Shown here: piece after piece, positions 310 through 16,446 of the stretch
Layout: every line of letters begins with the position of its first letter
How positions within the stretch are numbered: position 1 is the first letter of the stretch
Source of the DNA: Gammaproteobacteria bacterium
GTDB lineage: Bacteria > Pseudomonadota > Gammaproteobacteria > Xanthomonadales > Rhodanobacteraceae
Reading direction: 5' to 3'
NCBI GenBank assembly: GCA_004295005.1
Contig: SHNG01000122.1
Coordinates: 1 to 44,757, forward strand
Length of the DNA stretch: 44,757 nt
The notes under the pieces: model-generated
Seen by the model: the letters and a program-made list of their open reading frames with translations, nothing else
Databases searched by the model: none
What the model was told of the DNA's origin: nothing
Made by a program: the position numbers and the translations under genes

Positions 310-2529
310 CTAGGGAATGACAAAGTCATACAGGATTTCCGCGTCTGCGCCACTGCGGTGAGTGAAATGCCACCACTCCATCGGGTAGTTGTTGAAACCT
401 TCAGCCTGCATGGCATCCCGCAACAAGCGGCGATTGGCACGCTGTTCGGGCGTAATCTGCGGGGAATCGGTGTTTGCACGCGGATCGAATAGATCGAAAG
501 GGGTTCCCATGTCGAGCATGCGGCAAGCGCTCTTGCCGGGCGCACATTGCTCAAGGCTGAGATCCACCGTGTAACCCTTGCTGTGCCCGGAAACCGGAGC
601 GATGTAGTCGCCGAGCAGCGCCGACTTGTCGAGGTTTGGATAGTGGCGTGCGCGGGTTGCCTGGTCTGCCGGATCTTTTGCCCAGTGCACGAACTCGTGC
701 ACGGCACGGGCCGGCCGATAGCAATCGAAAACGTGCAGGCGCATGGAATTCTTCTCCAGCGCCCTCTGTACGCGCGCCAGCGCCGCCGCAGCATCCGCCT
801 TGAGCAGGCAACGGGGTTTGGCGTAGCCATCGATCGGACGACCGACAAAGTTGTCCGCGCCTGCGTAGCGCATGTCGATGCCAATTCCGCGCGAGAGCCT
901 GGCCACGTCGAGCATGCCGGCGGCCGATGCACTGCGTGCATTGGACACTGTGGGATTCCCTGCGAAATTTGCAGAAGCCAGTGAAGCGCCATTCGGACAC
1001 TCTGCTGTCCGCGTGAAGGCCAGATCCTCGTAATCGAAACTGAAGTCGCCTTCGGGATCGACCTTGGCCATGCGCATCTGCTGCGGGCCCTCGCCCGCCG
1101 GAAAATCCAGCCAGGCCTCCAGATCGACCGCATCGTCATCCCAGTCGACGAGCCAGCGCTTGCCTACGTGCACCACCCGGCCGCTCAGCATTGGCGACTT
1201 GAGCGAACCAAAGCGCACTTCGCCATCCTTCGCGCAAATCTGCACCTCGCCAAACCAGGGATCACGCCAGACCCCGAGCCGGTTGGTTGCCTCTGCGGGC
1301 GCAACCGCGATACGGCCCGCCGTGTCGACAACATCCGTTTCGGTTGTCGAAGTGCGCGGCTGTTCCAACTCATCGGCCAGCGCCGTCACGCTCTGCGCCT
1401 GGCCTGGGCGGGTGAAGTATCGGGTCAGCACGTCGGTGAGCACCGTACGCGCCGCATCGCCTTCGCCATTGGTCATCATCACGAAACCGCTCTTGCGATC
1501 CGGCAACAACATCATCACCGAGTACATGCCCGACAGGGTGCCGGTGTGCGAAACCGTCCACTGCCCATCGACATCGGCAAGCCGGAAGCCATAGGCATAA
1601 GCGTAGAAATGGGTATTGCCATGCGCCTTGCGCCAGTCGGAAATCGGCATGGGCGTGCGTGCCGTCCACATGAGCTTGCGCTGTTCGACAGACAACCATT
1701 CAAGATGCTTGGCATCCGGGTCCAGCCAGTTGCCCGCCCATTTCAGCATGGCATCGAGACTGCAACGGATGCCGCCTGCCGCCGCCGAGGTGATGACCGG
1801 CACGCGGCCTTCATCGACGCTACTGGGCACATTGCGGCCATCACGCCAGACATGCGGCTGCGCGATATTGTCCGTTGGTGTGACTTGCCACTCGCCCACG
1901 CGGCAATCGAGACCGAGCGGATCGAAAACCTCGCGCTTGACCAGCGCCTCGTAGGGCAACCCAGCCACTGCCGCTGCCACTTCACCGGCCACCACATACA
2001 GCAAATTATCGTAGGCGTAGCCCGAGCGAAAACTGTAAGCCGGCTTGATATGGCCAAGTCCGGCAATGATGTCGGACCGCGTGAAGTGGTTGGGTTCCGG
2101 CCACAGCATCAGGTCACCGCCGCCTTCCGGCAAGCCGCTGTTGTGCACCAGCAGATCACCAATCTGCAAGTTGCGCGTGACCCAGGGATCGAACATGCGG
2201 AATGACGGCAAGCGCGTGACCACCGCATCGTCCCACTTGAGCTTTCCGGCATCGACCAAGCGTGCCAAGGTACTCGCCGTCATCGCCTTGCTGTTGGAGG
2301 CAATCTTGAACAGGGTGTTCGAGTCGATCTTGCGGCCGCTGCCGACGATCAATTCGCCTTGCGTGCGTTTGTACACGACGCGACCGTTCTCGATCACGCC
2401 CACGGCAAGGCCGGGCAGGTGGAAGCGTTGCATGGCCGCTTCGAAGGCGGCATCCAAGCCCTGGTTTGCCGCCGCAGGAGCCGCGAGCAACATGCCAAGC
2501 AGCAATGAAGGAACACGCCATCGATTCAT
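310..2529 (-). CDS. Fused serine beta-lactamase-like hydrolase / D-Ala-D-Ala dipeptidase (VanX/DdpX-like)
   Basis: This is a 739-residue exported two-enzyme protein. A signal peptide (MNRWRVPSLLLGMLLAAPAAA) precedes a class C beta-lactamase/D,D-carboxypeptidase-type domain with the SxxK pair S78/K81, a YDN motif at about 173-175 and HTG at about 328-330. A linker region follows. The C-terminal 190 residues are an M15D dipeptidase with the zinc and catalytic pattern SGHSKGYTVD (H649, D656) and EWWH (E718, H721). Known families suggest removal of terminal D-Ala from peptides and hydrolysis of D-Ala-D-Ala in the periplasm. ATG 2529 is chosen because it overlaps the lysA stop as ATGA; a GTG at 2541 is the alternative. 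It is the last gene of the operon. The first domain could instead be an esterase; motif calls for both domains are firm. Confidence 0.9.
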   Translation of the reverse strand: MNRWRVPSLLLGMLLAAPAAANQGLDAAFEAAMQRFHLPGLAVGVIENGRVVYKRTQGELIVGSGRKIDSNTLFKIASNSKAMTASTLARLVDAGKLKWDDAVVTRLPSFRMFDPWVTRNLQIGDLLVHNSGLPEGGGDLMLWPEPNHFTRSDIIAGLGHIKPAYSFRSGYAYDNLLYVVAGEVAAAVAGLPYEALVKREVFDPLGLDCRVGEWQVTPTDNIAQPHVWRDGRNVPSSVDEGRVPVITSAAAGGIRCSLDAMLKWAGNWLDPDAKHLEWLSVEQRKLMWTARTPMPISDWRKAHGNTHFYAYAYGFRLADVDGQWTVSHTGTLSGMYSVMMLLPDRKSGFVMMTNGEGDAARTVLTDVLTRYFTRPGQAQSVTALADELEQPRTSTTETDVVDTAGRIAVAPAEATNRLGVWRDPWFGEVQICAKDGEVRFGSLKSPMLSGRVVHVGKRWLVDWDDDAVDLEAWLDFPAGEGPQQMRMAKVDPEGDFSFDYEDLAFTRTAECPNGASLASANFAGNPTVSNARSASAAGMLDVARLSRGIGIDMRYAGADNFVGRPIDGYAKPRCLLKADAAAALARVQRALEKNSMRLHVFDCYRPARAVHEFVHWAKDPADQATRARHYPNLDKSALLGDYIAPVSGHSKGYTVDLSLEQCAPGKSACRMLDMGTPFDLFDPRANTDSPQITPEQRANRRLLRDAMQAEGFNNYPMEWWHFTHRSGADAEILYDFVIP

Positions 2530-3851
2530 GCGCTGATCCACTGTGGTGAAGTCACCTCACCGGCAATCATCGCATCCAGGCTCTGGCGTTGCCGTATCAG
2601 CGCACTGCGACCGTCATCGATCATCACTTCGGCAAGCAGGGGTCGCGAGTTGTAGCTCGATGCCATCGATGTGCCATAGGCACCGGTGGTCTTGATGGCC
2701 AGCAGATCACCGGCCTGACACTCGGGCAGCTCGCGGGCCAGCGCGAAAGTATCACCGGTTTCGCAGACCGGCCCGACGATGTCGTAGGCAATCATTGGCC
2801 CACTCGCCTGCCTTACAGCCACGATGTCATGCCAGGCCTCGTACAGGCTCGGGCGCAGCAGATCATTCATGGCCGCATCAATGATGAGAAAGCGCCGCTG
2901 CTCGCCCTGCTTGACGCGGATCACGCGGGTCAGCAGGACGCCCGCTTCGGCGACCAGCCAACGCCCGGGCTCCAGCACGATGCGCCCGCGGAATTCACGC
3001 AGTGCGTGACGCACCACCTCGACATAGGCGGCGACATCCGGCGGATGGTCGTGACCTTCGCGATAGCACACGCCAAGTCCACCACCCACATCGATGCTGG
3101 TGATGGCATGGCCCGCCGCCACCAGTTCACGATGGAATTCGGCAACACGATCCAGCGCCTGGCGGAATGGCCCGAGATCAAGGATCTGCGAGCCGATATG
3201 CACATGCAGCCCATCCAGGCGCACGTTGGGGCGTTGTCGCGCCTGCTCAAACCAGGTGCGGGCTTCGCTCATGCCGACGCCAAACTTGTTTTCCGCCTTG
3301 CCCGTGGAAATCTTGGCGTGGGTCAAAGCGTCCACATCGGGATTCACGCGCACTGCCGCACAGGCAATGAGTCCGCGTTGTGCAGCAACCCGTTGCAGGC
3401 CATCGAGTTCATCCACCGATTCGACATTGAAGCGACCCACGCCACATTCCAGGGCCCGGGACATTTCCGCTTCGGTCTTGCCGACCCCGGAAAACACCAT
3501 TCGACTCCCTGAAATACCCGCGCGCAGGCAGCGCTCGAGTTCACCGACGGACACGATGTCCGCGCCTACGCCGTTTTCCGCCATCAAATTGAGGATGGCA
3601 TGGCAACTGTTGGCCTTGGCCGCAAAGCAAACCAACGCGTCCAGACCCTGCAGGGCGGCGTGCAGGCTGCGGATGCGATTGCGGATTGCGTTGGCCGAAT
3701 ACACCTGAAGTGGCGTGCCGTGACGGGCGGCGAGCGAATCGGCATTGACGCCTTCGAGCACACCTTCGGGACGGTCCACGGAGCCGGACGGGGAATCCAT
3801 CCGGCCCTCGCCAAGCGACCCGCCGAAACGGGTCGCTTCAACAGACATCAT
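2526..3851 (-). CDS. lysA: Diaminopimelate decarboxylase
   Basis: This is a PLP-dependent fold-III decarboxylase that converts meso-diaminopimelate to L-lysine in the cytoplasm. Visible features are the PLP lysine in CFAAKANS (K79), HIGSQ (218-222), the phosphate-binding GGGLG (256-260), EPGR (294-297), CETGD with the catalytic Cys363, and the substrate tyrosine in AYG (Y392). Residues 323-342 (IIDAAMNDLL onward) match the family well. The first ATG overlaps the TonB receptor stop as TGATG, which suggests coupled translation; an internal ATG at 3800 has a better Shine-Dalgarno (GAGGG) and may be the real start. The stop overlaps the next gene as ATGA. Its place among murein-peptide genes, away from other lysine-synthesis genes, suggests a role in using scavenged DAP (inference). 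Confidence 0.93.
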   Translation of the reverse strand: MMSVEATRFGGSLGEGRMDSPSGSVDRPEGVLEGVNADSLAARHGTPLQVYSANAIRNRIRSLHAALQGLDALVCFAAKANSCHAILNLMAENGVGADIVSVGELERCLRAGISGSRMVFSGVGKTEAEMSRALECGVGRFNVESVDELDGLQRVAAQRGLIACAAVRVNPDVDALTHAKISTGKAENKFGVGMSEARTWFEQARQRPNVRLDGLHVHIGSQILDLGPFRQALDRVAEFHRELVAAGHAITSIDVGGGLGVCYREGHDHPPDVAAYVEVVRHALREFRGRIVLEPGRWLVAEAGVLLTRVIRVKQGEQRRFLIIDAAMNDLLRPSLYEAWHDIVAVRQASGPMIAYDIVGPVCETGDTFALARELPECQAGDLLAIKTTGAYGTSMASSYNSRPLLAEVMIDDGRSALIRQRQSLDAMIAGEVTSPQWISA

Positions 3852-6814
3852 CAGAAATTGACCGTGACGGTCAACTGGCCGTAGCGCGGCGTCTGGTAAC
3901 CGGTCGGCTGACGATAGGTCGGATTGATGAAGCCAATATCCGATTCGAGCTGGTCATCCACTTCGATCACCTTTTCCGAGTTGAACAGGTTGTACACCGC
4001 CAGCTTCACGCGCAGGTCGCCCCTGCCCAGGGGCTGGTAGTAGCTGACGTTGGCACCGAGTGTGTAGGTCCACGGCAGGCGACCGGCAACCCCGCGCGGG
4101 CTGGCCTCGTACACGCGCTGCGACGGGTTTTCCGATTCGCAATTGGCCACGCAAATGAAGTTGCTGTGGTAATTGGTGCCATCGAACGGGTTGCCTACGC
4201 CGAACGCATTGACCGGGCGTCCCGATTCCGCAATCAGGTTGGCACCCACCTGCCAGTGATCATTGAAGCCATAGGCGCCACGGAACTTGAACTGGTGGCG
4301 ACGATCGTTGGGCAGGAATCCGTTGCCACCGTAATTGACCCAGGGATCGTCGAAGTTTTCGGTGCGACCGGTATCGGCAAAGTCGGTATCGGAATTGACC
4401 GGACCCTCGGCATTGCCCTCGCTGTAAGAAAGCGTGTAGGACGCATTGAAAGACCAGTGATTGTCCCAGGCGCGATCGATCTGCAACTCCAGCGCCTTGT
4501 AGGTACGCTTGGGCTTTTCGAAACCGGCCTCGCCCATGTAATTGCCATCGTCGTCGTACAAGGCCCAGCCGGCTTCCGAGGTGTCGATGGTGACATAGGC
4601 ATCATTTTCGCCATCACAATCGGTGTCGGTATAGACGGTGGCATCCCCACCCGGATTGCCCATGATGTAGCCGATATAGCCCGGCGATCCATCACAGAGT
4701 ATGCCGTTCGAGGTCAGTTCCATGTCATCGATGGCATTGGTCAGATCACGGAAAATGGCGCGTGCGCCAACCGACCACTTCTCACCCATCATCGACTGGA
4801 AGCCGAGGATCAATTCATCCTGGTAGACCGGGTCCATGTTCTTGTCGACTTCGCCGCGCAGGTCGCCCACCGTGCCATCACCTTGCGAGTCATCGACCGG
4901 ACCGATCTGCGGCCCGAGAATCGGACGCTGGTAGATGCTGCCGTTGTACTCGAAATCCTCCAGCCCATTGAACACGTAGAAGGTGCGCACATCGGCAAAG
5001 CCGCCGGCCTGCTTGATGTTGATCACGTTGGCTACCGGCAGGAAGTAACGGCCCAAGGTGCCGAAGATCTTGGTGCGGCCATCACCCACGGTGTCCCAAG
5101 TGAAGCCGAAGCGCGGGGCCAGCATGTCGTCGATCTTGATATAGCTGTCGCCATCCGAGTTCTTGTTGTCGAAGGCCTCCATGCGCAAGCCGGCATTGAA
5201 AATGAAGTTTGGGGTGATTGACCAGTTGTCTTCCAGGTAATACGCCGAGTTGATGCTTTCAAAGGTGCCATCCACCTCGTTGGTGCGCGTGCGCACGTAG
5301 GCGGTCACGCCATCCGGAACCACGCCGCCATTGGCCAGGGTTGTACCGGGTTCCGTGTCATAGATTTCATACAACAGGCGATCCGGACCGGGATAGAACT
5401 GACTGTGGTCCGAGGTATTGGTTTCGTGGTCCAGGCCAAACCTGAGCAGGTGATCACCCAGTGCCCATTCGAAATCCAGGCGTGCTGCCTCTCGCGTGTC
5501 GAGTCGTTCGGCCACTGTGGAGGTGCTCGTGCAGCCAATGTCGCCGTTGCCGACATCACGGCGATCACGGATGCGATTGCAGTTGATGTCATTCAGACTC
5601 GACTGCGCAAACTCGCGTTCGTTCTCGCCATACATGGCCTTCATCGAGAAACTGTCGGTGAGATAGCCGGTGTAGGTGGCCGACCAGTTGGTACCGCCGT
5701 TGTCGATGAAGCGCGTATTCGAGTACTCGCCGCGATTTCCGGAAGCCAGGTCGAACTGGTAGATGTCGGTGGCCGTGCTGTTGGAATCACCAAAGCCCAG
5801 GAATTCCAGCAAGTGGTTGTCGTTGATCTGCCAATCGAGCTTGGCGCCCCAGAATCCGTCATCGGCATCGCCTTCGTTGAGCAGATTGCCGGTGCTGGTC
5901 GTGTTGCTGGGTTGGTAGTCGCGTGCTTCGTACAAGGCGTAGAAGAACAACTTGTCCTTGACGATGGGACCGGATGCGTAGACGTTCAAATTGCGTCGCT
6001 CGTACTCGTCGTAACTGGAGATGTAGTACGGGTTGCCCTCTGCATCGTAATGATCGCTGCCTTCGGTTTGCAGGAAGCTGGGCTCCCATACTGCCTCCGC
6101 ACCGAACTTGAACTCGTTGGTGCCCGACTGGGTGACCGCATTGATCACGCCGCCGGTGGTGCGACCAAACTCCACCGAATAGCCGCCGGTCTTGATCTGG
6201 AATTCCTTGTAGAAGGAATAAGGCACCGAGGAGAAACCCACCCGGTTGTAGAAGTCGGTGACATTGAGGCCGTTGATGTAGACGGTGTTCTCGGCAACCG
6301 AGGATCCACCAAAGGAAATGCCGCCGAACTCACCCTCGATCACGCCCGGAGCGAGCAAGGCAACGGCAAGAGGATCACGCTCAACCGGTATCCTCTCCAA
6401 CTCCATCTTGTTGACGTTGGTGGCGCTCTCCATCGAGGTGACATCAACGGCCTGGACTGCCCCGGCAGTAACCACGATGGTGCCCAGGGTGCCCTCGGCT
6501 GCCCCGATGTTGACGGTGGTGGCCACACCCAGGTTCACGGTGACAGGTACGGGCTTGTCCGCAGAACTGGAGCTCAAGGAATAGTTGCCAACCGGCAGGA
6601 ACGGAAAACGATAGTTGCCGTTCGCATCGGCGGTCACCGAACGGGTGAAGCCGGTTTCCGGATTGGTCACCGTGACCGTGGCCCCGGAACCGGTTCGACC
6701 GAGCACGGAACCATCGGAATTGCCGGCATGGGCGGCAGGCAAGGCAAACGCGAAGCACAAGCCCAGTGCCATGTTCAGGGCAGACTTTCTCAACACTCGA
6801 TTGCTGCGGTTCAT
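3851..6814 (-). CDS. TonB-dependent outer-membrane receptor, Oar-like with N-terminal carboxypeptidase-regulatory-like domain
   Basis: The 987-residue protein has a signal peptide ending in AHA at residue 30 and a carboxypeptidase-regulatory-like beta-sandwich at about 33-107. A TonB-box-like stretch, GTIVVTA (111-117), is followed by a plug with GGYSVEFGRTTGGVINAVTQ and a long beta-barrel ending in the terminal Phe typical of outer-membrane proteins. The start at 6814 is chosen for its purine-rich Shine-Dalgarno (GAGGGGAAAAGAGA region) and the signal peptide; a longer reading frame to 6928 would overlap the upstream gene. It lies 37 nt after the transglutaminase-like gene and overlaps lysA by one base. 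The family imports or binds large substrates with TonB energy; the murein-peptide substrate suggested by the neighbours is inference. Confidence 0.92.
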   Translation of the reverse strand: MNRSNRVLRKSALNMALGLCFAFALPAAHAGNSDGSVLGRTGSGATVTVTNPETGFTRSVTADANGNYRFPFLPVGNYSLSSSSADKPVPVTVNLGVATTVNIGAAEGTLGTIVVTAGAVQAVDVTSMESATNVNKMELERIPVERDPLAVALLAPGVIEGEFGGISFGGSSVAENTVYINGLNVTDFYNRVGFSSVPYSFYKEFQIKTGGYSVEFGRTTGGVINAVTQSGTNEFKFGAEAVWEPSFLQTEGSDHYDAEGNPYYISSYDEYERRNLNVYASGPIVKDKLFFYALYEARDYQPSNTTSTGNLLNEGDADDGFWGAKLDWQINDNHLLEFLGFGDSNSTATDIYQFDLASGNRGEYSNTRFIDNGGTNWSATYTGYLTDSFSMKAMYGENEREFAQSSLNDINCNRIRDRRDVGNGDIGCTSTSTVAERLDTREAARLDFEWALGDHLLRFGLDHETNTSDHSQFYPGPDRLLYEIYDTEPGTTLANGGVVPDGVTAYVRTRTNEVDGTFESINSAYYLEDNWSITPNFIFNAGLRMEAFDNKNSDGDSYIKIDDMLAPRFGFTWDTVGDGRTKIFGTLGRYFLPVANVINIKQAGGFADVRTFYVFNGLEDFEYNGSIYQRPILGPQIGPVDDSQGDGTVGDLRGEVDKNMDPVYQDELILGFQSMMGEKWSVGARAIFRDLTNAIDDMELTSNGILCDGSPGYIGYIMGNPGGDATVYTDTDCDGENDAYVTIDTSEAGWALYDDDGNYMGEAGFEKPKRTYKALELQIDRAWDNHWSFNASYTLSYSEGNAEGPVNSDTDFADTGRTENFDDPWVNYGGNGFLPNDRRHQFKFRGAYGFNDHWQVGANLIAESGRPVNAFGVGNPFDGTNYHSNFICVANCESENPSQRVYEASPRGVAGRLPWTYTLGANVSYYQPLGRGDLRVKLAVYNLFNSEKVIEVDDQLESDIGFINPTYRQPTGYQTPRYGQLTVTVNF

Positions 6815-6851
6815 TTCTCTTTTCCCCTCGGGTTGCCGCATGTGCCTGCGG

Positions 6852-8294
6852 TTATGGTTTCTCGGGCGCGGCAGGTTTGACCTGCCAGGTAAAGTCGTAA
6901 TCCCACTGGTCGAAATACAGATTGCCACCGCTCCACTCCGCCTCCCCGCGCTGCAGGTCGACCGTCTCGGAACGGAAATGCCGCTTGGCCGGAATCAACG
7001 GCTGGCCGTAATCGTCATTGAAGGCAACGCGGTAGGCGTCCTGCCCGCCCAGGTAGAAATTCGCAATTGCCGGATCGGAGCTGTCCAGGCGTCCGCTGGT
7101 AACATCCATGGGAATCCAGCCGTATGGCGCGATGTAGACCTGGCCCCAGTCGTGCAGGTTGCTGTAGTCGCCGTCCGAATAGACCATGCCGGATTGCCAG
7201 CGCGCGGGAATGCCGTTGTATCGGAGCAGGGTGATCAAGAGCAGGGTCTGCTGGCCGCAGTCGGCATGACCGGCGTGCAGGGCGTAGTCGCTGATGTTGC
7301 TGATGGTCGAATACTCGCGTGCCCCTGCCCACGGAACCTGGTCAACCGCCGCATAGAGTTTCTGCGTGATTCGCCAGGGGTTTTTCTCGTCGCCGACGAT
7401 CTGGCGTGACAACAGGCGGATCGATTCGGTGAACAGCACGTGCGGCGCGCGCTCGGCGACAAAGGGCGCCAGCTCGTCGGTAATGGTGGCTGCAACCACC
7501 TTGTCGGCATCGACAGCGACGTAGCGCGCAAACACATCCAGTGCGTAGCTCACCGAAAACACCGTGGGCTTGCCGGCCACGGCAGGCTTCTCCAGGTACA
7601 CGGTGCGCTGCATCGCGGACTCGGGCGCAAGCTGGTGGCGGGATGGTTCGCTGCCGATCAAGCGGATGTTTTCCTGCTGACCCGGCAAGGCACGTGGATA
7701 CGGAATCCATGCGCTCACCGTTTCCCCGGCTGGCACCGCATCGGCATTCACGCTGATGGATTGGGTTATCTCGAGGTGACGCGGAACCACGCTGCTTGCA
7801 TGACCAGCCAATGCGGCATCAATGACTTCGCGATGATGGGCGTTGGCCCGCTCCATCGGCCCGTCGTTGAAAACCACGGCCGGCTTGGCCCGGGCCCGCG
7901 CTTCGGCACTCAAGCGAAACAGGTTTGAAGGCGAGCGATTGAAATAGAGCAGTTTCCCATCGATGAGCTGGTGCTCGAAAAGCCCCATCGCGTCCCAACG
8001 CGCAAACTCGGCATCGTTGAGATCGGCAATGCGCTCACGTACACGCGTCTTGACGGCATCGGCATCCAGGGTGAAATCAAGCAGGATGCGGCGCATGCGT
8101 TCGCGCTGAAACTCGAGGGATGTGCGCGTTTCTGCCGCAAGTGGGGTTTGCGCGAGAGCCGAGGCGATCATCGTCTCCGCCTGCTTGAACTGGCCCTGGT
8201 CAATACTGGCAATGACGAGGTCCAGCGATGCCGGAGGTGAGGCTATCGCGGCCTGCGCAAGCAACATGAGCAGCAATGCATGGCAACGCGGCAT
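6852..8294 (-). CDS. Exported transglutaminase-like protein
   Basis: The protein has about 480 residues and starts with a signal-like sequence (MPRCHALLLMLLAQAAIA). The C-terminal half carries the transglutaminase-like triad: Cys346 in GHADCGQQ, His381 in NLHDWGQVY and Asp397 in WIPMDV, counted from ATG 8294. The N-terminal half (about 25-240) has no motif I recognise. Bacterial members of this superfamily are often cysteine peptidases or amidases rather than crosslinkers, so peptide hydrolysis in the periplasm fits the cluster (inference). In-frame ATGs at 8345 and 8399 are alternatives; the candidate promoter at 8382-8410 makes 8399 unlikely. It is the first gene of the minus-strand operon, opposite the DUF819 operon. 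Confidence 0.85.
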   Translation of the reverse strand: MPRCHALLLMLLAQAAIASPPASLDLVIASIDQGQFKQAETMIASALAQTPLAAETRTSLEFQRERMRRILLDFTLDADAVKTRVRERIADLNDAEFARWDAMGLFEHQLIDGKLLYFNRSPSNLFRLSAEARARAKPAVVFNDGPMERANAHHREVIDAALAGHASSVVPRHLEITQSISVNADAVPAGETVSAWIPYPRALPGQQENIRLIGSEPSRHQLAPESAMQRTVYLEKPAVAGKPTVFSVSYALDVFARYVAVDADKVVAATITDELAPFVAERAPHVLFTESIRLLSRQIVGDEKNPWRITQKLYAAVDQVPWAGAREYSTISNISDYALHAGHADCGQQTLLLITLLRYNGIPARWQSGMVYSDGDYSNLHDWGQVYIAPYGWIPMDVTSGRLDSSDPAIANFYLGGQDAYRVAFNDDYGQPLIPAKRHFRSETVDLQRGEAEWSGGNLYFDQWDYDFTWQVKPAAPEKP

Positions 8295-8381
8295 TTGCCG
8301 CTTGCGCTGCACACACGTCAAGATCGATACCGCTGCCTGCCGCATCGCGTGGGAATTCCAACTGGAAGGATCCGTGGCGGC

Positions 8382-8410
8382 TGTGTAACACGGTTGCAAT
8401 CGACGGTCAA
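8382..8410 (-). promoter_or_regulatory. Candidate promoter of the transglutaminase-TonB-lysA operon
   Basis: On the minus strand TTGACC (8405-8410) stands 17 nt from TACACA (8382-8387). The -35 box is good and the -10 box is weak. It overlaps the opposing candidate promoter at 8394-8421, so the two operons could be regulated together. Confidence 0.35.
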
Positions 8411-8421
8411 TAATTTATGCT
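8394..8421 (+). promoter_or_regulatory. Candidate promoter of the DUF819-NlpC/P60-epimerase operon
   Basis: TTGCAA (8394-8399) is followed after 16 nt by TATGCT (8416-8421), both partial matches to sigma-70 boxes. This would give a leader of about 60 nt before the ATG at 8491. It is based on sequence similarity only. Confidence 0.3.
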
Positions 8422-8490
8422 TCGCATTATTCGCTCAGGAATCATCTATTCCGCGGCGCACCATTCGGCGCAGGAAGCACAGGGATTCAC

Positions 8491-9642
8491 ATGATCCAGA
8501 CGGTATCGCCCTACCTGGCCCTGATGCTGCTTTGCGCGGGAATTTTCCCGGCACTGGAACGGCGCTTTGGCTGGCCGTTCTTCAAGGTCGTGCCGCCCAT
8601 CGTGTTGACCTATCTGCTGGTCACCACGCTGGCAGTGACCGGGCTCTGGCAGGTCAACGACGAAATCAAGTCTGCACAATCCAGCCTGATTGGGCGCCTG
8701 GTACCGGCGCTGCTGTTCCTGCTCATGATCAACTGCGACCTGCGCGCGATCTACCGGCTCGGCCCCCGTGTGCTGGCCGTGTTCTTCTGCACCTCGCTGT
8801 GTCTGTTCATTGCCTTCATCGCCAGCTTTCTGATGTATCGCGGCTGGCTCACCGGCGATGCCTGGCAGCCGCTGGCGGCACTGAGCGGCAGTTGGGTCGG
8901 TGGTTCGGCCAACATGGTTGCGGTCAAGCAGGCGATCGGCATGTCGGACTCGCTGATGGCGATGTCCTTGCTGACCGATGCCCTGGGCTACTCGCTGTGG
9001 GTGGCCGTGCTGTTTTCGGCAGCACCCCTGGCCACCGCCTTCAATCGCTGGACCGGCGCGACATCCAGTGCCGACCTCAGCGTGGGCGAGTTGCGTGAAC
9101 AGGCACCTGCGACCGGTGACAGCGTGTTGGTCTGGCTTGGACTGGCCCTGCTCGTCGCAGCCGGCAGCGCTTCCCTGGCAAGCCTGCTGCCAACCAGCAG
9201 CATGATCTCGGCAACCACTTGGACCATCCTGTTGGCCACCGGGTTTGGTCTGGTCGCAGCGCACACTCCGCTTTCGCGCTATCCGGGTGCCGGCTCCATC
9301 TCCAGCGCGCTGCTGATTGCCGTGGTTGCGGTACTCGCCTCGCAAAGCAATTTCGAAGGCATCGGTAATGCGCCGCTTTATCTGCTCTGCGGCCTCACCA
9401 TCATTGCCCTGCATGCCGTACTGCTGATCCTCGCGGCACGCCTGTTCCATTTCGATCTTTATCTGTGCGGCATCGCATCGCTGGCGCACATTGGTGGCGT
9501 CGCGGCAACACCCTTGCTGGCAGCCAGCTACGCGCGTTCGCTGGTGCCGGTCGGCATCCTGCTGGCCTTGCTCGGCTACATTCTTGGCACCGGGTTCGGT
9601 CTACTGGTGGCATCCATCCTTTCCAGGCTCGCACTCCCATGA
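8491..9642 (+). CDS. DUF819 family membrane protein
   Basis: This 383-residue polytopic inner-membrane protein has about ten hydrophobic segments. It carries the DUF819 hallmark region GSWVGGSANMVAVKQAIG (about 131-148) and a later glycine-rich repeat of the same fold type (LAHIGGVAATPLLAASYA). The family, which includes Bacillus YjcL, has no firmly assigned function; its fold resembles secondary transporters. Its stop overlaps the next start as ATGA, so it is translated together with an NlpC/P60 murein-peptide endopeptidase and, beyond that, a dipeptide epimerase. That context makes it a candidate importer of murein peptides, L-Ala-D-Glu or diaminopimelate (inference). Confidence 0.92.
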   Translation: MIQTVSPYLALMLLCAGIFPALERRFGWPFFKVVPPIVLTYLLVTTLAVTGLWQVNDEIKSAQSSLIGRLVPALLFLLMINCDLRAIYRLGPRVLAVFFCTSLCLFIAFIASFLMYRGWLTGDAWQPLAALSGSWVGGSANMVAVKQAIGMSDSLMAMSLLTDALGYSLWVAVLFSAAPLATAFNRWTGATSSADLSVGELREQAPATGDSVLVWLGLALLVAAGSASLASLLPTSSMISATTWTILLATGFGLVAAHTPLSRYPGAGSISSALLIAVVAVLASQSNFEGIGNAPLYLLCGLTIIALHAVLLILAARLFHFDLYLCGIASLAHIGGVAATPLLAASYARSLVPVGILLALLGYILGTGFGLLVASILSRLALP

Positions 9643-11069
9643 AGCACCGCCAATCTTTGCTTGCATTGCGTCTGCTGATGACGCTTGCACTGGCCTTGCC
9701 GCTGGCGCCGCTGGCCGCGCGCGAGTCGCCTGCGCTTGGCGTCGCCGCTGTCACGGAAAGTCAATTGACTGCCGAATTCTGGATCGCCCGCCTGACCCAA
9801 GCCGATCAGCTCATCATGGATCGACAGGCCATCAGCGATCAGAACGCCCGCCTGATGCGCGAAGACGACTCCATGCATGACCTCGCCGCCACGCCGGAGG
9901 AGCTGGTCGGAAACCAGGTGCGCGACTGGATCGAGAATTTCGCCCAGGTTCCGCAGTCCACTGTGTATGACGAGGAAGGCAAGGCCGTGGACCATGCTCG
10001 CCTGCAAGCCGTTGCCGACAACCGCTGGCTCGATGGCATTGCCGGTTTGCAAAGGACTCGCTTCGGCATGGTGGTCAGGCGTGCCGACCTGCGCGCCTTC
10101 CCGACCATGCTGCGGGTTTTTCGTTCGAACGATGACACCGACATCGATCGATTCCAGGAAAGCGCGGTGTTTCCCGGCACGCCACTGGTCATTGCACACG
10201 AAAGCGGTGATCACCAGTGGTGGTTCGTGATCACGCCACGCTATGCGGCCTGGATCCGGAAAGCCCTCGTAGCCATCGGCGAACGGGATGAAGTGCTCGG
10301 CTACGCGAACAAGGCACCATATCGCATCATCACCGGCGCCGACGTGCATACCGTATTCACCCGCGAGCAGCCGGCGCTCTCGCAACTGAAACTGGACATG
10401 GGCGTGCGCGTACCCGTACTGGCCGACTGGCCGGTAGACAAGCCGGTCAATGGCCAGCACCCCTATGTTTCGCATGTGATCGAACTGCCCATACGCAAGG
10501 GCGATGGCAGTCTGGCATTTGCCCCTGCGCTGTTGCAGAAGAATGCAGATTCCAGCGCCGACTACCTGCCATTGACGAAACACAACATCATTCGCCAGGC
10601 TTTCAAGTTCCTTGGTGAACGTTATGGCTGGGGCCACACCTACGAAGGCCGCGATTGCAGCGGCTTCGTAGCCGAGGTGTATCGCAGCATGGGCGTGCAG
10701 ATGCCACGCAACACCAGCGACCAGGGCGTGAGCCCCGCATTCGCCAAGCGGGTATTCCAGGAATCCGACGACAGTGCCGAGCGCAGCCGCATCGCGCGTG
10801 CAAGCGGGGTCGGGGATCTCGTCTACATCCCCGGCCACGTGATGCTGGTCATTGGCTCGATCAATGGGGATCCCTGGGTGATCCACGACACCACCGGCAT
10901 CAGTTACCGCCGTGCGGATGGCAGCATGGCACGGATTCCGCTCAACGCGGTTTCGGTGACGCCGCTGATGCCCTTGCAGTTCGACGAAACGCATACCTAC
11001 ACCGAGCGCATGCGCAGCATCGTGCACATGCGCCCTGCCCCCGCCACGCAAACAGCAGGCAAACCATGA
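9639..11069 (+). CDS. SH3b-NlpC/P60 (C40) cell-wall endopeptidase, YkfC-like
   Basis: The protein has 476 residues. A signal peptide (about 1-27) leads into a helical region. SH3b-type domains follow, with the typical RFGMVVRRADLRAFPT at about 141-156. The C-terminal NlpC/P60 domain has Cys340 in GRDCSGFV, His400 in IPGHVMLV and a third polar residue, His416, in WVIHDTTG. Relatives such as Bacillus YkfC cut the gamma-D-Glu-diaminopimelate bond of murein peptides that have a free N-terminal L-Ala. Its ATGA overlap with the L-Ala-D/L-Glu epimerase gene downstream repeats the YkfB-YkfC partnership. The signal peptide places the reaction in the periplasm, unlike a purely cytoplasmic recycling enzyme. 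Start 9639 is set by the overlap with the previous stop. Confidence 0.93.
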   Translation: MKHRQSLLALRLLMTLALALPLAPLAARESPALGVAAVTESQLTAEFWIARLTQADQLIMDRQAISDQNARLMREDDSMHDLAATPEELVGNQVRDWIENFAQVPQSTVYDEEGKAVDHARLQAVADNRWLDGIAGLQRTRFGMVVRRADLRAFPTMLRVFRSNDDTDIDRFQESAVFPGTPLVIAHESGDHQWWFVITPRYAAWIRKALVAIGERDEVLGYANKAPYRIITGADVHTVFTREQPALSQLKLDMGVRVPVLADWPVDKPVNGQHPYVSHVIELPIRKGDGSLAFAPALLQKNADSSADYLPLTKHNIIRQAFKFLGERYGWGHTYEGRDCSGFVAEVYRSMGVQMPRNTSDQGVSPAFAKRVFQESDDSAERSRIARASGVGDLVYIPGHVMLVIGSINGDPWVIHDTTGISYRRADGSMARIPLNAVSVTPLMPLQFDETHTYTERMRSIVHMRPAPATQTAGKP

Positions 11070-12160
11070 AGATCACCGACATCCGTTTCGGCATGTTGCG
11101 CGTTCCGCTGAAAACACCGTTCAAGACCGCCCTGCGCAGCGTTGACCAGGTCGAAGACATCGTGGTCATGGTCAACACCGACAGCGGCCATGTCGGTTAC
11201 GGCGAGGCACCGGCGACCGCCGTCATCACCGGCGACACCCACGGCTCGATCATCGAGGCGATCCGCCACTACATTTCACCACGCCTGATCGGACACGAGG
11301 TCGCCGACCTCAATCACCTGACCCATCTGGTCCAGGGGGCGATGGAAAAGAACTCCAGCGCCAAGGCTGCCGTCGAGATCGCCATCTACGACCTCTGGGG
11401 ACAGTTGTACAACGCACCGTTGTACCGCCTGCTCGGCGGGGGTGACCCGGTCATCACCACCGACATCACCATCAGCGTGGACTACATCGACAAGATGGTG
11501 GCCGACTCCATGGCCGCAGTGGAACGCGGCTTCGAGTCACTCAAGATCAAGGTCGGCAAGGACATTGGCGTCGACATCGAGCGGGTCAAGGCCATCTACG
11601 CCGCCGTCGAGGGTCGCGCCCTGCTGCGCCTGGATGCCAACCAGGGCTGGACCGCGAAGCAGGCCGTGTATGCGCTGCAAACCCTTGAAGATGCCGGCGT
11701 GCGTCTGGAACTTGTTGAACAACCGGTCAAGGCGCACGATCTGGACGGCATGAAGTACATCACCGAACGCGTGCACACTCCGGTGATGGCTGATGAAAGC
11801 GTGTTCGGTCCGATGGAAGTAATCGAGCTGATCCGCATGCGCGCGGCGGACATCGTCAATATCAAGCTGATGAAAACCGGCGGCCTGTCCAATGCCATAC
11901 GCATTGCCGACATCGCCGCCATCTACGGTGTGGATTGCATGATCGGCTGCATGCTGGAAGGCAGCATCAGCGTGGCGGCGGCGGTGCACCTGGCCGTGGC
12001 AAAATCCCACGCCATCACCAAGATCGACCTCGACGGACCTTCGTTGTGCGCGTTCAATCCGGTCGATGGCGGAGTACTCTTCAACGACTCGGAAATCAGC
12101 GTGACCGATGCCCCCGGACTTGGCATTCGCGAGATTCGCGGACTGGAATTGGTCGGCTAG
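11066..12160 (+). CDS. L-Ala-D/L-Glu (dipeptide) epimerase, enolase superfamily
   Basis: This 364-residue cytoplasmic enzyme belongs to the muconate-lactonising subgroup. The N-terminal capping domain is followed by a barrel with the KIKVGKD catalytic lysine region (about 159-165). Metal ligands lie in RLDANQGW, VEQPV and MADES, and the second catalytic lysine is in NIKLMKTGG. An Asp-x-Asp in KIDLDGP near the end is the feature linked to dipeptide epimerases (compare E. coli YcjG and B. subtilis YkfB). It converts L-Ala-D-Glu from murein to L-Ala-L-Glu, which ordinary peptidases can cut. The start at 11066 overlaps the endopeptidase stop (ATGA). It has no signal peptide, so its substrate must be imported first. 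Confidence 0.94.
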   Translation: MKITDIRFGMLRVPLKTPFKTALRSVDQVEDIVVMVNTDSGHVGYGEAPATAVITGDTHGSIIEAIRHYISPRLIGHEVADLNHLTHLVQGAMEKNSSAKAAVEIAIYDLWGQLYNAPLYRLLGGGDPVITTDITISVDYIDKMVADSMAAVERGFESLKIKVGKDIGVDIERVKAIYAAVEGRALLRLDANQGWTAKQAVYALQTLEDAGVRLELVEQPVKAHDLDGMKYITERVHTPVMADESVFGPMEVIELIRMRAADIVNIKLMKTGGLSNAIRIADIAAIYGVDCMIGCMLEGSISVAAAVHLAVAKSHAITKIDLDGPSLCAFNPVDGGVLFNDSEISVTDAPGLGIREIRGLELVG

Positions 12161-12192
12161 TGTCATGTCCTGCGGAAATCTTCAACAATCGT

Positions 12193-12371
12193 CGTCCCTG
12201 CGCAGGCAGGGACCCAGTGACTTGATCGAAAAAGCCATGAACGAAAAAGACACTGGATCCCGGATCTCGCTTCGCGATTCCGGGATGACGAGCAGGATCA
12301 GGCTTTCCCTGGTGCAATGTCCTGCCGGAAGCTTGAATAGTGGTCGTCCCTGCGCAGGCAGGGACCCAGTG
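12193..12371. repeat. Three palindromic repeats downstream of the epimerase gene
   Basis: The 389-nt stretch 12161-12549 holds no gene that I can support. Two near-identical copies (12193-12219 and 12345-12371) start CGTCCCTGCGCAGG and end GGGACCCAGTG, and their preceding 20-25 nt are also similar. Between them (12251-12292) lies a copy of the CCGGGATGACG family in opposite orientation, with ATCCCGGA/TCCGGGAT arms. All share CGTC-like and CAGTG-like ends, which suggests they are variants of one mobile or processed repeat. They may also end transcription of the epimerase operon (inference). Confidence 0.8.
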
Positions 12372-12549
12372 CCTTTCCAGGCGATTTTCGAAGTCGCTGG
12401 ATTCCCGCCCTCGCAGGAGCGACGAGCAGCAGTTCCTCAAGACGTGAAGCATGCGAACCGATGAACCCTCGCCCCACTTCTCCATGGCCGAACGCAAGGA
12501 GCTTGATCTGGACAGCCCATCGCAAGGCCCACGTGAGCGCGGAGTCGCC

Positions 12550-13398
12550 ATGTCGCCACTTTTGAAGATCCGCGCCGAGCGCGACCAGATGTCGGCCATC
12601 GAGCGACGCATTGCCGACTTCATCCTGGAAGAAGCCCATTTCCTGCGTGACTACTCCTCGCAGCAACTAGCCAATGCGCTCAAGATCAGCCAGTCCAGCG
12701 TGGTCAAGTTCAGCCAGAAACTGGGCTTCAAGGGCTACCCGGATCTCAAGTATTCAATCGGTGAATCCATCGCACGCGGCGATGGCAGCGAGCCTTCCGC
12801 CAGTGCCGAGCCTGCGCGCAAGGACGCGCATGCGGCCCTTGCGGAAAGCCTCTGGCACAGCAAGTCGCTGGCCGAGCAGGAGACGCGGGTGATCAACCCG
12901 TCCTCGAAGGTGAACCAGATCGCCAATGCAATCCACAAGGCCGGCAAGGTGTTCGTGTTTGGACTGGGTGAGGATGGCATCCCCGCGCGCGCCTTCGCCA
13001 TGCGCCTGTCCCTGCTCGACTTCCTCACCGTGCATCATTTTGATGCCGTGCTGATGACCACCGCCATATCCTGCGCCGATGCCGGCGACGTGCTGCTGAT
13101 GTTCTCGGAGCACGGACAGCAACCGGCACTGGCCAAGATCGGCCGCCAATTTCGCGAGCGCCGCGGCAAGCTCATCTCGGTCACCCGGCATACCGCCAAT
13201 CCCTTGCGCAACCTGGCCGATCACTCCCTGCTCGTTTCCGCGCACGATGAGCGCGCCCACATCGAACCCCTGCTCTACCAGACCGCGCTGCGCCACTTGC
13301 TGGACATGCTGTTCATCCTGCTTTGCGAGAATGGTGGCGATCGTCTCAGTCACCTGGAGGCAAACCTGGAGCGCGTGCGCAATCTGCATGAACCCTGA
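12550..13398 (+). CDS. MurR/RpiR family transcriptional regulator
   Basis: The protein has about 282 residues. An N-terminal RpiR-type helix-turn-helix (about 36-70, with LANALKISQSSVVKFSQKLG) is joined to a C-terminal SIS sugar-isomerase-like sensor domain (about 130-250, starting AGKVFVFGLGEDG). Members sense phosphosugars or related metabolites; E. coli MurR senses N-acetylmuramic acid 6-phosphate. ATG 12550 is chosen for its GGAG Shine-Dalgarno and for the normal family N-terminus; the frame is open from an ATG at 12451, which would add 33 unconserved residues. It lies between the murein-peptide operon and transporter genes in the same direction, so control of this cluster by a murein-derived ligand is a reasonable inference. 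Confidence 0.9.
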   Translation: MSPLLKIRAERDQMSAIERRIADFILEEAHFLRDYSSQQLANALKISQSSVVKFSQKLGFKGYPDLKYSIGESIARGDGSEPSASAEPARKDAHAALAESLWHSKSLAEQETRVINPSSKVNQIANAIHKAGKVFVFGLGEDGIPARAFAMRLSLLDFLTVHHFDAVLMTTAISCADAGDVLLMFSEHGQQPALAKIGRQFRERRGKLISVTRHTANPLRNLADHSLLVSAHDERAHIEPLLYQTALRHLLDMLFILLCENGGDRLSHLEANLERVRNLHEP

Positions 13399-13453
13399 TG
13401 CACGAGCGCAGGCGAATTCCCGAACCCATCCCGTCAATTTCTGAGCAATCCAC

Positions 13454-14755
13454 ATGAGCAACACCGCCCGCATCCTGCTTGGGTTGATCCTCGGCGCACT
13501 CGTCGGGCTGCTTCTGGCCTGGCTGGATCCTGCACTGGCCATGCATGCCGCCGACATTGCCCAGCCCATTGGCCGCCTGTGGCTGAACGCATTACAGATG
13601 ACCGTGGTGCCGCTGGTGTTGGCATTGGTCGTGGTCGGAGTCAGCACCGCCAATGACGCGGCTGCCTCGGGCCGCATTGCACGACGCGCCATCGGCGTGT
13701 TCATCGTGTTGCTGGCTTGCGGCGCGACTTTCGCCGCACTGGTGGCGCCCGCGGCATTTTCGCTGTTGCCTCACGATGCCGACCTGATCGAACACATGCG
13801 CGCATCGGTTCCTGCGAGCAGCACGCTCAGCGCCCCTGCCAACCTGGGCGAATGGTTCGCCACCATTATTCCAAGCAATGCCATCGCCGCTGCCGCACAG
13901 AGCGCCATGTTGCCGTTGGTGGTGTTTGCCCTGTTCTTTGGATTTGCGCTGACCCGCATCGAGAGTGGGCGACGCCAGCGCATGACCGACTTTTTTCAGA
14001 GCCTGGCCGATGTGATGATCGTGATCGTGCACTGGGTGCTTTGGGCGGCACCGCTCGGCGTGTTCGCCCTGGTGCTTGCGGTGTGTGCCAAGGCCGGCAG
14101 CAGCGTGCTCAGCGCGCTGGGCTGGTATGTGGTCATCCTCAGTTCGATCTATGTGGCAGTGACCTTGCTGCTGTACCCGATTGCGGTTCTGGTTGGTGGC
14201 GAGCGCCTGCGTCGCTGGATTCCGGCCATCCTGCCCGCCCAGGTCGTTGCCGCCAGCACCCAGTCCTCGCTGGCAACCCTGCCGGCCATGCTGGAGAGCG
14301 CACGCGAGCGCCTGGATCACCCGCGCGCTGCTTCCGCACTGGTACTGCCGATGGCGGTTTCGCTGTTTCGCATCACCAGCCCAATCCAGTACATCGTGGT
14401 TTCCGCATTCATCGCCTGGATGTATGGCGTCGATGTCGGCGTGATGCAAATGGCCATTGCGGTCGTGCTGGCCGTGGTCATCAGTTTGGGATCGGTCGGC
14501 TTGCCGGGACAGGTGAGTTTCATGGCCACCAACATGCCGGTCGCCGCTGCCTTGGGGCTGCCGCTGGAACCACTCGCCTTGCTGCTAGCCGTGGATACCA
14601 TCCCCGATGTGTTTGCCACGGTCGGCAATGTGAGTGCGGACCTTACCGCCAACAGCATCGTGGCCAATGGCGAGCGTGAATCCGCTCGCAATGAAATTGA
14701 ATCCGTTCGTGGTGAGCCCTTCGACCGTGCTCAGGACAGGCCTGTCGAACCATGA
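13454..14755 (+). CDS. Dicarboxylate/amino acid:cation symporter (DAACS, GltP-like) with repeat-derived tail
   Basis: This 433-residue inner-membrane protein belongs to the glutamate transporter family. It shows the N-terminal transmembrane bundle, a serine-rich re-entrant loop (VVAASTQSSLATLPAM, about 261-276), the helix with PLVLALVVVGV, and the second re-entrant and substrate-binding region around SVGLPGQVSF and DTIPDVFATVGNV. It would import glutamate, aspartate or similar acids with protons or sodium. It begins 55 nt after the MurR-like gene. The last 20 or so residues, from about ESVRGEPFDRAQDRPVEP, are encoded by an intergenic repeat copy (14704-14758), so the ancestral protein probably ended a little earlier, near IVANGE. 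The tail is cytosolic and unlikely to disturb the core. Confidence 0.92.
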   Translation: MSNTARILLGLILGALVGLLLAWLDPALAMHAADIAQPIGRLWLNALQMTVVPLVLALVVVGVSTANDAAASGRIARRAIGVFIVLLACGATFAALVAPAAFSLLPHDADLIEHMRASVPASSTLSAPANLGEWFATIIPSNAIAAAAQSAMLPLVVFALFFGFALTRIESGRRQRMTDFFQSLADVMIVIVHWVLWAAPLGVFALVLAVCAKAGSSVLSALGWYVVILSSIYVAVTLLLYPIAVLVGGERLRRWIPAILPAQVVAASTQSSLATLPAMLESARERLDHPRAASALVLPMAVSLFRITSPIQYIVVSAFIAWMYGVDVGVMQMAIAVVLAVVISLGSVGLPGQVSFMATNMPVAAALGLPLEPLALLLAVDTIPDVFATVGNVSADLTANSIVANGERESARNEIESVRGEPFDRAQDRPVEP

Positions 14756-16290: not shown

Positions 16291-16446
16291 ATGCGGCTGC
16301 CCGAAGTCTTGAGCGCGTCGCGTGCCATTTGGGCGCTCGACCACCGGGCGAACCTGCGGCGACAAACGACGCTGAATCAAGGCATCCAATTTTCATTTCC
16401 TGCGCGCAACCGGCGCCGCACTCTTTTCGTCTATTCCGGAGTTTCC

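Follow-up and report, generated by a model that had tools for sequence, protein, structure and literature searches.

We suggest that positions 310 to 14755 of a 44,757-nucleotide stretch from a Rhodanobacteraceae genome (contig SHNG01000122.1; hereafter the window) form a co-regulated, TonB-linked scavenging and catabolic locus for external murein stem peptides, additional to AmpG/Mpl-type recycling, and we put the probability of this reading at roughly three in four. Among the polymers of dead bacterial matter, murein is a common one; to our knowledge, and as far as the literature searched goes, the entry of its peptides across the Gram-negative outer membrane has been little studied. The reading builds on observed gene content, conservation, a promoter element, an extra diaminopimelate (DAP) decarboxylase (LysA) and active-site residues; from sequence it predicts substrates, the order of steps, cellular locations and binding of the regulator to its site. 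An initial annotation of this DNA had proposed TonB uptake, periplasmic trimming, import, epimerisation and DAP decarboxylation. That core idea gains support from a conserved neighbourhood, a divergent element, the supernumerary LysA and a parallel murein locus, while the accompanying claim that the system is complete has to be given up.

Nine genes at 310 to 14755 were located as open reading frames and each assigned to families by Pfam and NCBIfam; all lie where they were first placed; the 37-nt gap separates 6814 from 6852, and neighbouring genes overlap by 4 nt at 9639 and at 11066.

310..2541, minus strand: fusion of a serine hydrolase (beta-lactamase/DD-peptidase fold) with a VanX-like D-Ala-D-Ala dipeptidase, predicted exported (PF00144, 181 bits; PF01427, 138 bits)
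2526..3851, minus strand: LysA, stand-alone diaminopimelate decarboxylase (TIGR01048, 473.9 bits; cut-off 297.9)
3851..6814, minus strand: TonB-dependent receptor with N-terminal carboxypeptidase-regulatory domain (PF13620, PF07715, PF25183)
6852..8294, minus strand: transglutaminase-like cysteine hydrolase, predicted exported (PF01841)
8380..8452, no strand: divergent promoter/operator region (conserved 15-mer from the conservation scan; promoter hexamers by inspection)
8491..9642, plus strand: DUF819 membrane protein with a possibly CitS-like (2HCT elevator) fold (PF05684, 262 bits)
9639..11069, plus strand: SH3b-NlpC/P60 gamma-D-Glu-diamino-acid endopeptidase, YkfC-like, predicted exported (PF12913, SH3_6; PF00877, NLPC_P60)
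11066..12160, plus strand: L-Ala-D/L-Glu epimerase, YkfB-like, predicted cytoplasmic (MR_MLE; 1JPM, E 3e-100)
about 12550..13398, plus strand: RpiR-family regulator with SIS domain (PF01418, PF01380; open frame from 12451)
13454..14755, plus strand: SDF (glutamate/dicarboxylate-type) symporter (PF00375, 268 bits)

The start positions 6814, 8294 and 12550 were chosen by ATG, signal-like segment or orthologue starts, regulator orthologues beginning near 12550. By inspection, the hydrolase fusion, receptor, transglutaminase-like protein and NlpC/P60 protein each begin with a signal-like segment, and none was seen in LysA, the epimerase or the regulator.

In the proposed route, the TonB receptor would carry peptides, possibly cross-linked or with D-Ala, over the outer membrane. 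Periplasmic trimming would follow: the serine hydrolase and dipeptidase would remove and split D-Ala residues, the transglutaminase-like enzyme would open an amide or isopeptide bond, and the exported NlpC/P60 enzyme would sever gamma-D-Glu from DAP; the last D-Ala may be removed by a YkuD protein in most relatives, and in the window by another enzyme unless the step is skipped. DUF819 may act as an accessory inner-membrane importer, the epimerase would yield L-Ala-L-Glu for ordinary dipeptidases, LysA would convert DAP to lysine (a lysine-catabolic dehydrogenase being adjacent in some genomes), and the RpiR regulator would act at the common divergent promoter. YkfC/MpaA-type cleavage and YkfB/YcjG epimerisation, as described in excerpts of PMC2954226, underlie this scheme, together with the family activity of LysA on DAP.

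Conservation of the divergent operons

A scan of the named genomes with an alignment of the transglutaminase-like protein returned at least 476 relatives, of which the best 80 were kept as loci, those at contig ends included. The counts are conditional on this anchor gene, the loci are related by descent, and strict counts demand the expected strand and at least 40% identity. On this basis the NlpC/P60 gene occurs in 75 of the 80 loci, the epimerase in 73, the TonB receptor in 72, RpiR in 71, the serine hydrolase in 70 and the dipeptidase in 65, followed by YkuD (63), SDF (53), a second serine hydrolase (36), DUF819 (35), LysA (35), an M19 dipeptidase (28), a DAO-family oxidoreductase (22), an APC permease (11, mostly in loci without SDF) and a piperidine-carboxylate dehydrogenase (8). 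Accepting any match gives 75 for TonB, 66 for the dipeptidase, 65 for YkuD, 55 for SDF, 36 for DUF819, 12 for APC and 39 for the second hydrolase, the strand and identity rule having removed 3, 1, 2, 2, 1, 1 and 3 loci, respectively. NlpC adjoins the epimerase in 73 loci, TonB the transglutaminase-like gene in 72, and the epimerase RpiR in 71. The best 80 include loci from Dokdonella, Lysobacter, Dyella, Luteibacter, Rhodanobacter, Frateuria, Luteimonas, Pseudoxanthomonas and Stenotrophomonas, with one Xanthomonas sp., Steroidobacter and Povalibacter also represented. PyrD and MurB were dropped as a neighbour-loss control: at the window's spacing they lie beyond the 10-kb flanks, and their counts (7/80 and 5/80) are uninformative.

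Among 60 related genomes, DUF819 is present at 72% identity or more in 15, the window's own included. Both divergent operons surround it in 13 of the 14 others, within stretches of at most 20 kb and with single members lost occasionally; the exception, G029, retains DUF819-NlpC-epimerase-YkuD alone. The locus of G004 is divided between two contigs and that of G030 lacks TonB and DUF819. Three sister-family genomes, one of whose loci ends at a contig end, keep the same order without DUF819 and LysA, the members being 43-80% identical at the protein level. The initial annotation had named the lack of a conserved neighbourhood in related genomes as one half of its grounds for abandoning the idea; the neighbourhood is present across the 80 loci and in the related genomes.

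Relatives also add genes: the M19 dipeptidase between LysA and the hydrolase (in many relatives; one example family-scanned), YkuD between RpiR and SDF (one example family-scanned, a second below the Pfam cut-off), and the DAO-family oxidoreductase after SDF (one example family-scanned). Hydrolase and dipeptidase are one fused gene in the window and in 3 of the 80 loci, and separate wherever else both occur. With M19-hydrolase (2) and dipeptidase-second hydrolase (2), this makes seven shared-frame fusions in the 80 loci, which point to a common function of the members.

An amidase-like family was considered as a further core member and ruled out. It lies near the locus in 14 of the 72 loci scanned (one member Pfam-checked), and a strong homologue is found somewhere in 17 of 19 genomes, usually away from the locus.

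A second, different TonB-dependent receptor stands in or beside the cluster in 8 of 72 loci, for example at 14727-17708 of L177 (PF00593, PF07715). At 11752-14213 of L038 the TonB receptor matches in three pieces with the middle unmatched, and may be decayed, diverged or misassembled.

A single-site element tracks the regulator

The divergent gap of the window holds the element GTCAATAATTTATGC at 8406-8420 and a second, GGAATCATCTATTCC, at 8438-8452; on the minus strand, TTGACC (8405-8410) is followed by TGTTACACA (8382-8390), promoter-like by inspection. The pattern GTCAATAAWTTATKC occurs in this gap in all 75 loci with a divergent DUF819 or NlpC gene, and with the window in 76 of 76; the remaining 5 of the 80 loci have no such divergent gene and were excluded. 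Conservation is local: the window's 15-mer at 8406, used as a probe, agreed with 75/75 loci at no fewer than 13 of its 15 positions, and probes starting outside 8376-8412 and 8436-8439 did so with 0-3. The second element (TATTC) is less constant and lies at a near-fixed distance from the first. A full GGAAT-N4-ATTCC dyad at the second element, with 9-10 of 10 letters, was found in 22 of 76 cases, so the dyad is not general. A literature search for a GGAA-N6-TTCC operator of an RpiR-type regulator found nothing, and the reading makes no use of such an operator.

Of the 60 genomes, 18 have the 15-mer pattern, each a single time, and 42 lack it; the reversed-pattern control has one occurrence in total across all 60. 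All 18 sites lie at this locus by coordinates, that of G030 included, and an RpiR orthologue (56-100% identity; next matches 31-35%) is present in exactly those 18. G016 and G032, which have the transglutaminase-like gene, and G029, which has DUF819-NlpC-epimerase, have neither RpiR orthologue nor site. The site thus tracks the regulator, yet locus and regulator are nearly inseparable; binding of RpiR at the element is predicted.

The regulator had been described as MurR-like. Its membership of the RpiR family stands (PF01418, PF01380), and identity with MurR is ruled out by a score of 86 bits against the NF012026 cut-off of 408. A family scan limited to ten window proteins around it, with the remainder of the genome outside its scope, showed neither murQ nor murP.

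Active sites of the murein-peptide enzymes

The dipeptidase domain matches VanX (1R44) at E 1e-33 over about 190 residues, and the fusion protein carries the motifs SNSK, YAYDN, SHTG, SGHSKGYTVD and EWWH, which we take to have catalytic and zinc roles. It misses the NCBIfam VanX cut-off (NF033115, 166/320 bits). The M15 fold and active-site motifs are shared with VanX/DdpX; unlike those enzymes, the dipeptidase here is fused to an exported serine hydrolase in a catabolic-looking locus. Glycopeptide or beta-lactam resistance as the main meaning of these genes was ruled out, the VanX-like and hydrolase domains scoring far below resistance-family cut-offs among catabolic neighbours.

The endopeptidase has the SH3b and NlpC/P60 architecture with its catalytic Cys, the DCSG motif being present in 74 of 75 loci. 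Its best PDB match is 3M1U, YkfC (3H41) is matched by profile at E 3e-8, and H400 and H416 are invariant in 28 sequences of a profile alignment. The PRD of 3H41 aligns to PRN here; N358 is invariant in the 28 sequences, and 3M1U also has Asn.

The epimerase matches Bacillus subtilis YkfB (1JPM) with 339 bits and carries the catalytic and metal residues expected of an MR/MLE fold, as well as R24 and a DxD motif (R24, D321/D323, K160, K162, D190, E218, D243 and K267). The R24 motif is kept in 72 of 73 loci and the DxD motif, which L-Ala-D/L-Glu epimerases share, in 73 of 73. R24 is given as a feature of these epimerases in excerpts of PMC3965090. The protein misses the NCBIfam equivalog cut-offs (NF041118, 253/500 bits; NF011708, 115/343).

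Strict motif patterns gave low counts for several enzymes: 3/75 for the NlpC second histidine; 57, 47 and 26 of 70 for the hydrolase; 52, 47 and 65 of 66 for the dipeptidase; and 44, 53 and 58 of 65 for YkuD. We take the low values among these to reflect over-narrow patterns rather than proof of loss. A YkuD protein can act as an L,D-carboxypeptidase, as does ElsL of Acinetobacter, which is however cytoplasmic (PMC8649774, in excerpt).

A supernumerary LysA

LysA acts on meso-DAP, which is typical of murein. In all 18 genomes examined there is another DAP decarboxylase match (304-323 bits) in a frame of 870-1007 amino acids, two of them with one in-frame stop, and 11 of the 18 have the stand-alone, locus-type LysA (450-485 bits). 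In the window's genome the other LysA lies on contig G000:C85 in an 869-amino-acid open reading frame whose start we take, from its motif, to be aspartokinase-like. The LysA at the locus is therefore supernumerary, and a second copy fits DAP use rather than lysine synthesis.

Two genes beyond the symporter extend the list:

14878..16194, plus strand: APC amino-acid permease, possibly in the unit (PF13520)
16291..17979, plus strand: L-piperidine-6-carboxylate dehydrogenase (NF050084, 757.4 bits; cut-off 730)

The dehydrogenase, 79-93% identical, lies within 10 kb in 8 of the 80 loci, each of which also has LysA. The pattern hints that the LysA product may enter lysine catabolism, in few and related genera.

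The window's genome also holds a third LysA-like, pyridoxal-phosphate decarboxylase (L189, G000:C18, 1486-2838; TIGR01048, 231 bits, below cut-off); our guess is that it is perhaps of the exosortase-associated type.

The transglutaminase-like protein and DUF819

The triad C346/H381/D397 of the transglutaminase-like protein does not vary in either of two alignments (17 and 40 sequences), and over the 80 loci strict patterns find the Cys motif in 77, HDW in 80 and PxDV in 78. The structural model (predicted local distance difference test, pLDDT, 90) has 3isr as its nearest fold (E 1e-13), followed by TgpA, with a weak match to PeiP, the pseudomurein endoisopeptidase, at rank 18 (E 0.03, probability 0.97). 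An amide or isopeptide bond is the enzyme's probable target. In a 369-genome sample of the class, homologues of 600 bits or more are confined to the window and three sister-family genomes, the others reaching at most 36.3 bits; of the 60 relatives, members of two more families in the order (G046, G058) carry homologues of 44-46% identity with no locus around them.

DUF819 is modelled with a pLDDT of 85, and its best PDB fold is the sodium/citrate symporter CitS (E 6e-5); over ten fold matches with E of 0.001 or below, TMq is 0.54-0.65. With CitS as nearest fold, the model makes it plausible that the protein imports an organic anion by an elevator mechanism.

Tentatively, and with considerable doubt, we extend the reading to a dedicated outer-membrane route in which the transglutaminase-like protein would be a new class of murein cross-link endo-isopeptidase, in line with its weak fold resemblance to PeiP, DUF819 the missing importer of L-Ala-D-Glu or DAP at the inner membrane, and RpiR a sensor of murein peptides, not of N-acetylmuramic acid 6-phosphate.

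A variant locus (9055-12683 of L216; also L128 and L145, of which L145, L216 and G016 are one genome) has the transglutaminase-like gene followed by YkuD and SDF, no NlpC, epimerase or RpiR, and a different TonB receptor (27-28%) placed divergently. Here YkuD may be the sole partner of the transglutaminase-like enzyme.

Parallel loci

Two loci of one genus in another family of the order (L214 and L215, in genomes G042 and G052) combine an epimerase (69% identity) with NlpC/P60 (34-36%), RpiR (34-35%) and serine hydrolase (35-38%) homologues, an amidase (AmiD) alongside, and a TonB-receptor-like stretch of 27-28% identity over about one third of the query (tblastn only). In L215, a family scan placed MpaA, alanine racemase (Alr) and NagA (TIGR00221) over their cut-offs and recognised an S66 L,D-carboxypeptidase by Pfam, its NCBIfam score falling short of the cut-off set for the E. 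coli counterpart. An SSF symporter and the exo-muramidase NamZ are also present in L215; NamZ and NagA were seen in this locus only, the one whose families were scanned. This 20-kb stretch looks like a full murein utilisation locus with sugar and peptide parts. No transglutaminase-like gene is present in the L214/L215 stretch. In G038, the dipeptidase, NlpC, epimerase, YkuD and SDF genes stand together. These parallel loci, one of them with murein glycan genes, support the assignment of murein as substrate.

L215 also holds an Asp/Glu racemase, a D-serine-dehydratase-like protein and a Gate-domain protein, and L214 is similar in part.

Scavenging, recycling or another substrate

Several observations weigh against the scavenging locus as we draw it, and the first of them is what removes the claim of completeness. 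YkuD and M19 genes, kept at the locus by many relatives, are missing from that of the window, and DUF819 and LysA are each gone from 35 of 67 long loci, so we regard both as accessory and neither as essential. The NlpC/P60 enzyme has Asn in place of the Asp256 that contacts the free L-Ala amine in Bacillus cereus YkfC (PMC2954226, in excerpt); specificity for a free N-terminal L-Ala is for this reason uncertain, and other N-termini may be accepted. In L128, L145, L152 and G032, none of NlpC, epimerase and RpiR lies near the transglutaminase-like gene, whose product may thus have a wider role. Finally, the degenerate 15-mer pattern was written after inspection of the same sequences in which it was counted.

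The locus might instead serve self-recycling or wall remodelling, processing the cell's own murein shed during growth or beta-lactam stress while the receptor recaptures leakage. The regulator does have a SIS domain, and several of the enzyme families also serve recycling (PMC2954226 and PMC8649774, in excerpt). We nevertheless consider this unlikely. Mpl is over its cut-off in 18 of 19 genomes, and TIGR00901, which we take to be of AmpG type, is matched in 19 of 19 and over its cut-off in 18, the window genome's copy ending at a contig end. Because these genes coexist with the locus in the same genomes, the locus appears additional to recycling. It is also patchy: 18 of the 60 relatives have element and regulator, and 6 of the 10 genomes of the same genus lack them (the window's own counted among the ten; two of the six are 85-90% complete). 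In 72 of 80 loci a TonB receptor gene stands directly beside that for the transglutaminase-like protein. A locus that is additional, and patchy within its own genus, favours scavenging over housekeeping.

Scavenging of a different substrate, another D-amino-acid or gamma-glutamyl peptide such as a natural product or peptide antibiotic degraded by recruited murein-type enzymes, would suit a transglutaminase-like enzyme and a DUF819 protein without assigned substrate, and an NlpC active site that differs from YkfC at one residue. It is improbable given the meso-DAP substrate of LysA, murein-typical by family knowledge, the near-universal retention of the epimerase motifs (R24 72/73, DxD 73/73), and the parallel murein locus with NamZ, NagA and MpaA. 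A mere neighbourhood of separately useful envelope genes, brought together by chance or short descent, is most improbable: the loci are nearly all of one order and the downstream dehydrogenase gene also stays in 8/80, but order is kept in the sister family at 43-80% identity, the same dehydrogenase neighbour, within the 10-kb flanks, is lost in 72/80, and the divergent element does not occur outside this site.

Relation to known systems

The scavenging locus resembles Bacillus YkfABC(D) and E. coli MpaA-YcjG-PepD in having an NlpC/P60 endopeptidase beside an L-Ala-D/L-Glu epimerase, and the ykfB-ykfC association is also noted in Bacteroides, Gramella, Solibacter and others (PMC2954226, in excerpt). 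In contrast to the Ykf pathway, the locus here is TonB-linked, with no ABC dipeptide transporter recognised in it, and it adds the D-Ala-D-Ala dipeptidase, serine hydrolase, transglutaminase-like enzyme, LysA, DUF819 and RpiR. The endopeptidase here is predicted to be exported, as is that of B. cereus according to excerpts of the same source, and the YkuD protein of relatives stands where Bacillus has the L,D-carboxypeptidase YkfA.

The individual chemistry of the steps is mostly known. The initial annotation called the TonB-linked system possibly new. For the package this holds as far as the literature searched, in which we found no description of this locus and from which most subscription papers are missing. 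The idea of a TonB peptidoglycan transporter is older, having been predicted by genome context in Pedobacter heparinus, of another phylum (PMC3400609, in excerpt). Tannerella forsythia likewise takes up environmental muropeptides; it differs in that its carrier, AmpG-like and in the inner membrane, takes up sugar-peptides that serve wall synthesis (PMC6448482, in excerpt). Excerpts of PMC11980594 and PMC13204101 contain nothing further on TonB uptake. As far as these searches show, the package, the single-site divergent switch, the second LysA and the candidate roles for two proteins are new. With its compact layout, its one switch site, its TonB receptor and two proteins without an assigned role, the locus can be tested directly, and DUF819, a Pfam family of unknown function, gains a concrete candidate substrate.

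The genome to which the window belongs, 87% complete in 197 contigs of which the window is number 20, shares its genus with genome G003. The window's epimerase-regulator gap (12158-12450) is longer than in relatives, and an GTCGTCCCTGCGCAGGCAGGGACCCAGTG-like sequence occurs twice there, perhaps as a dispersed repeat.

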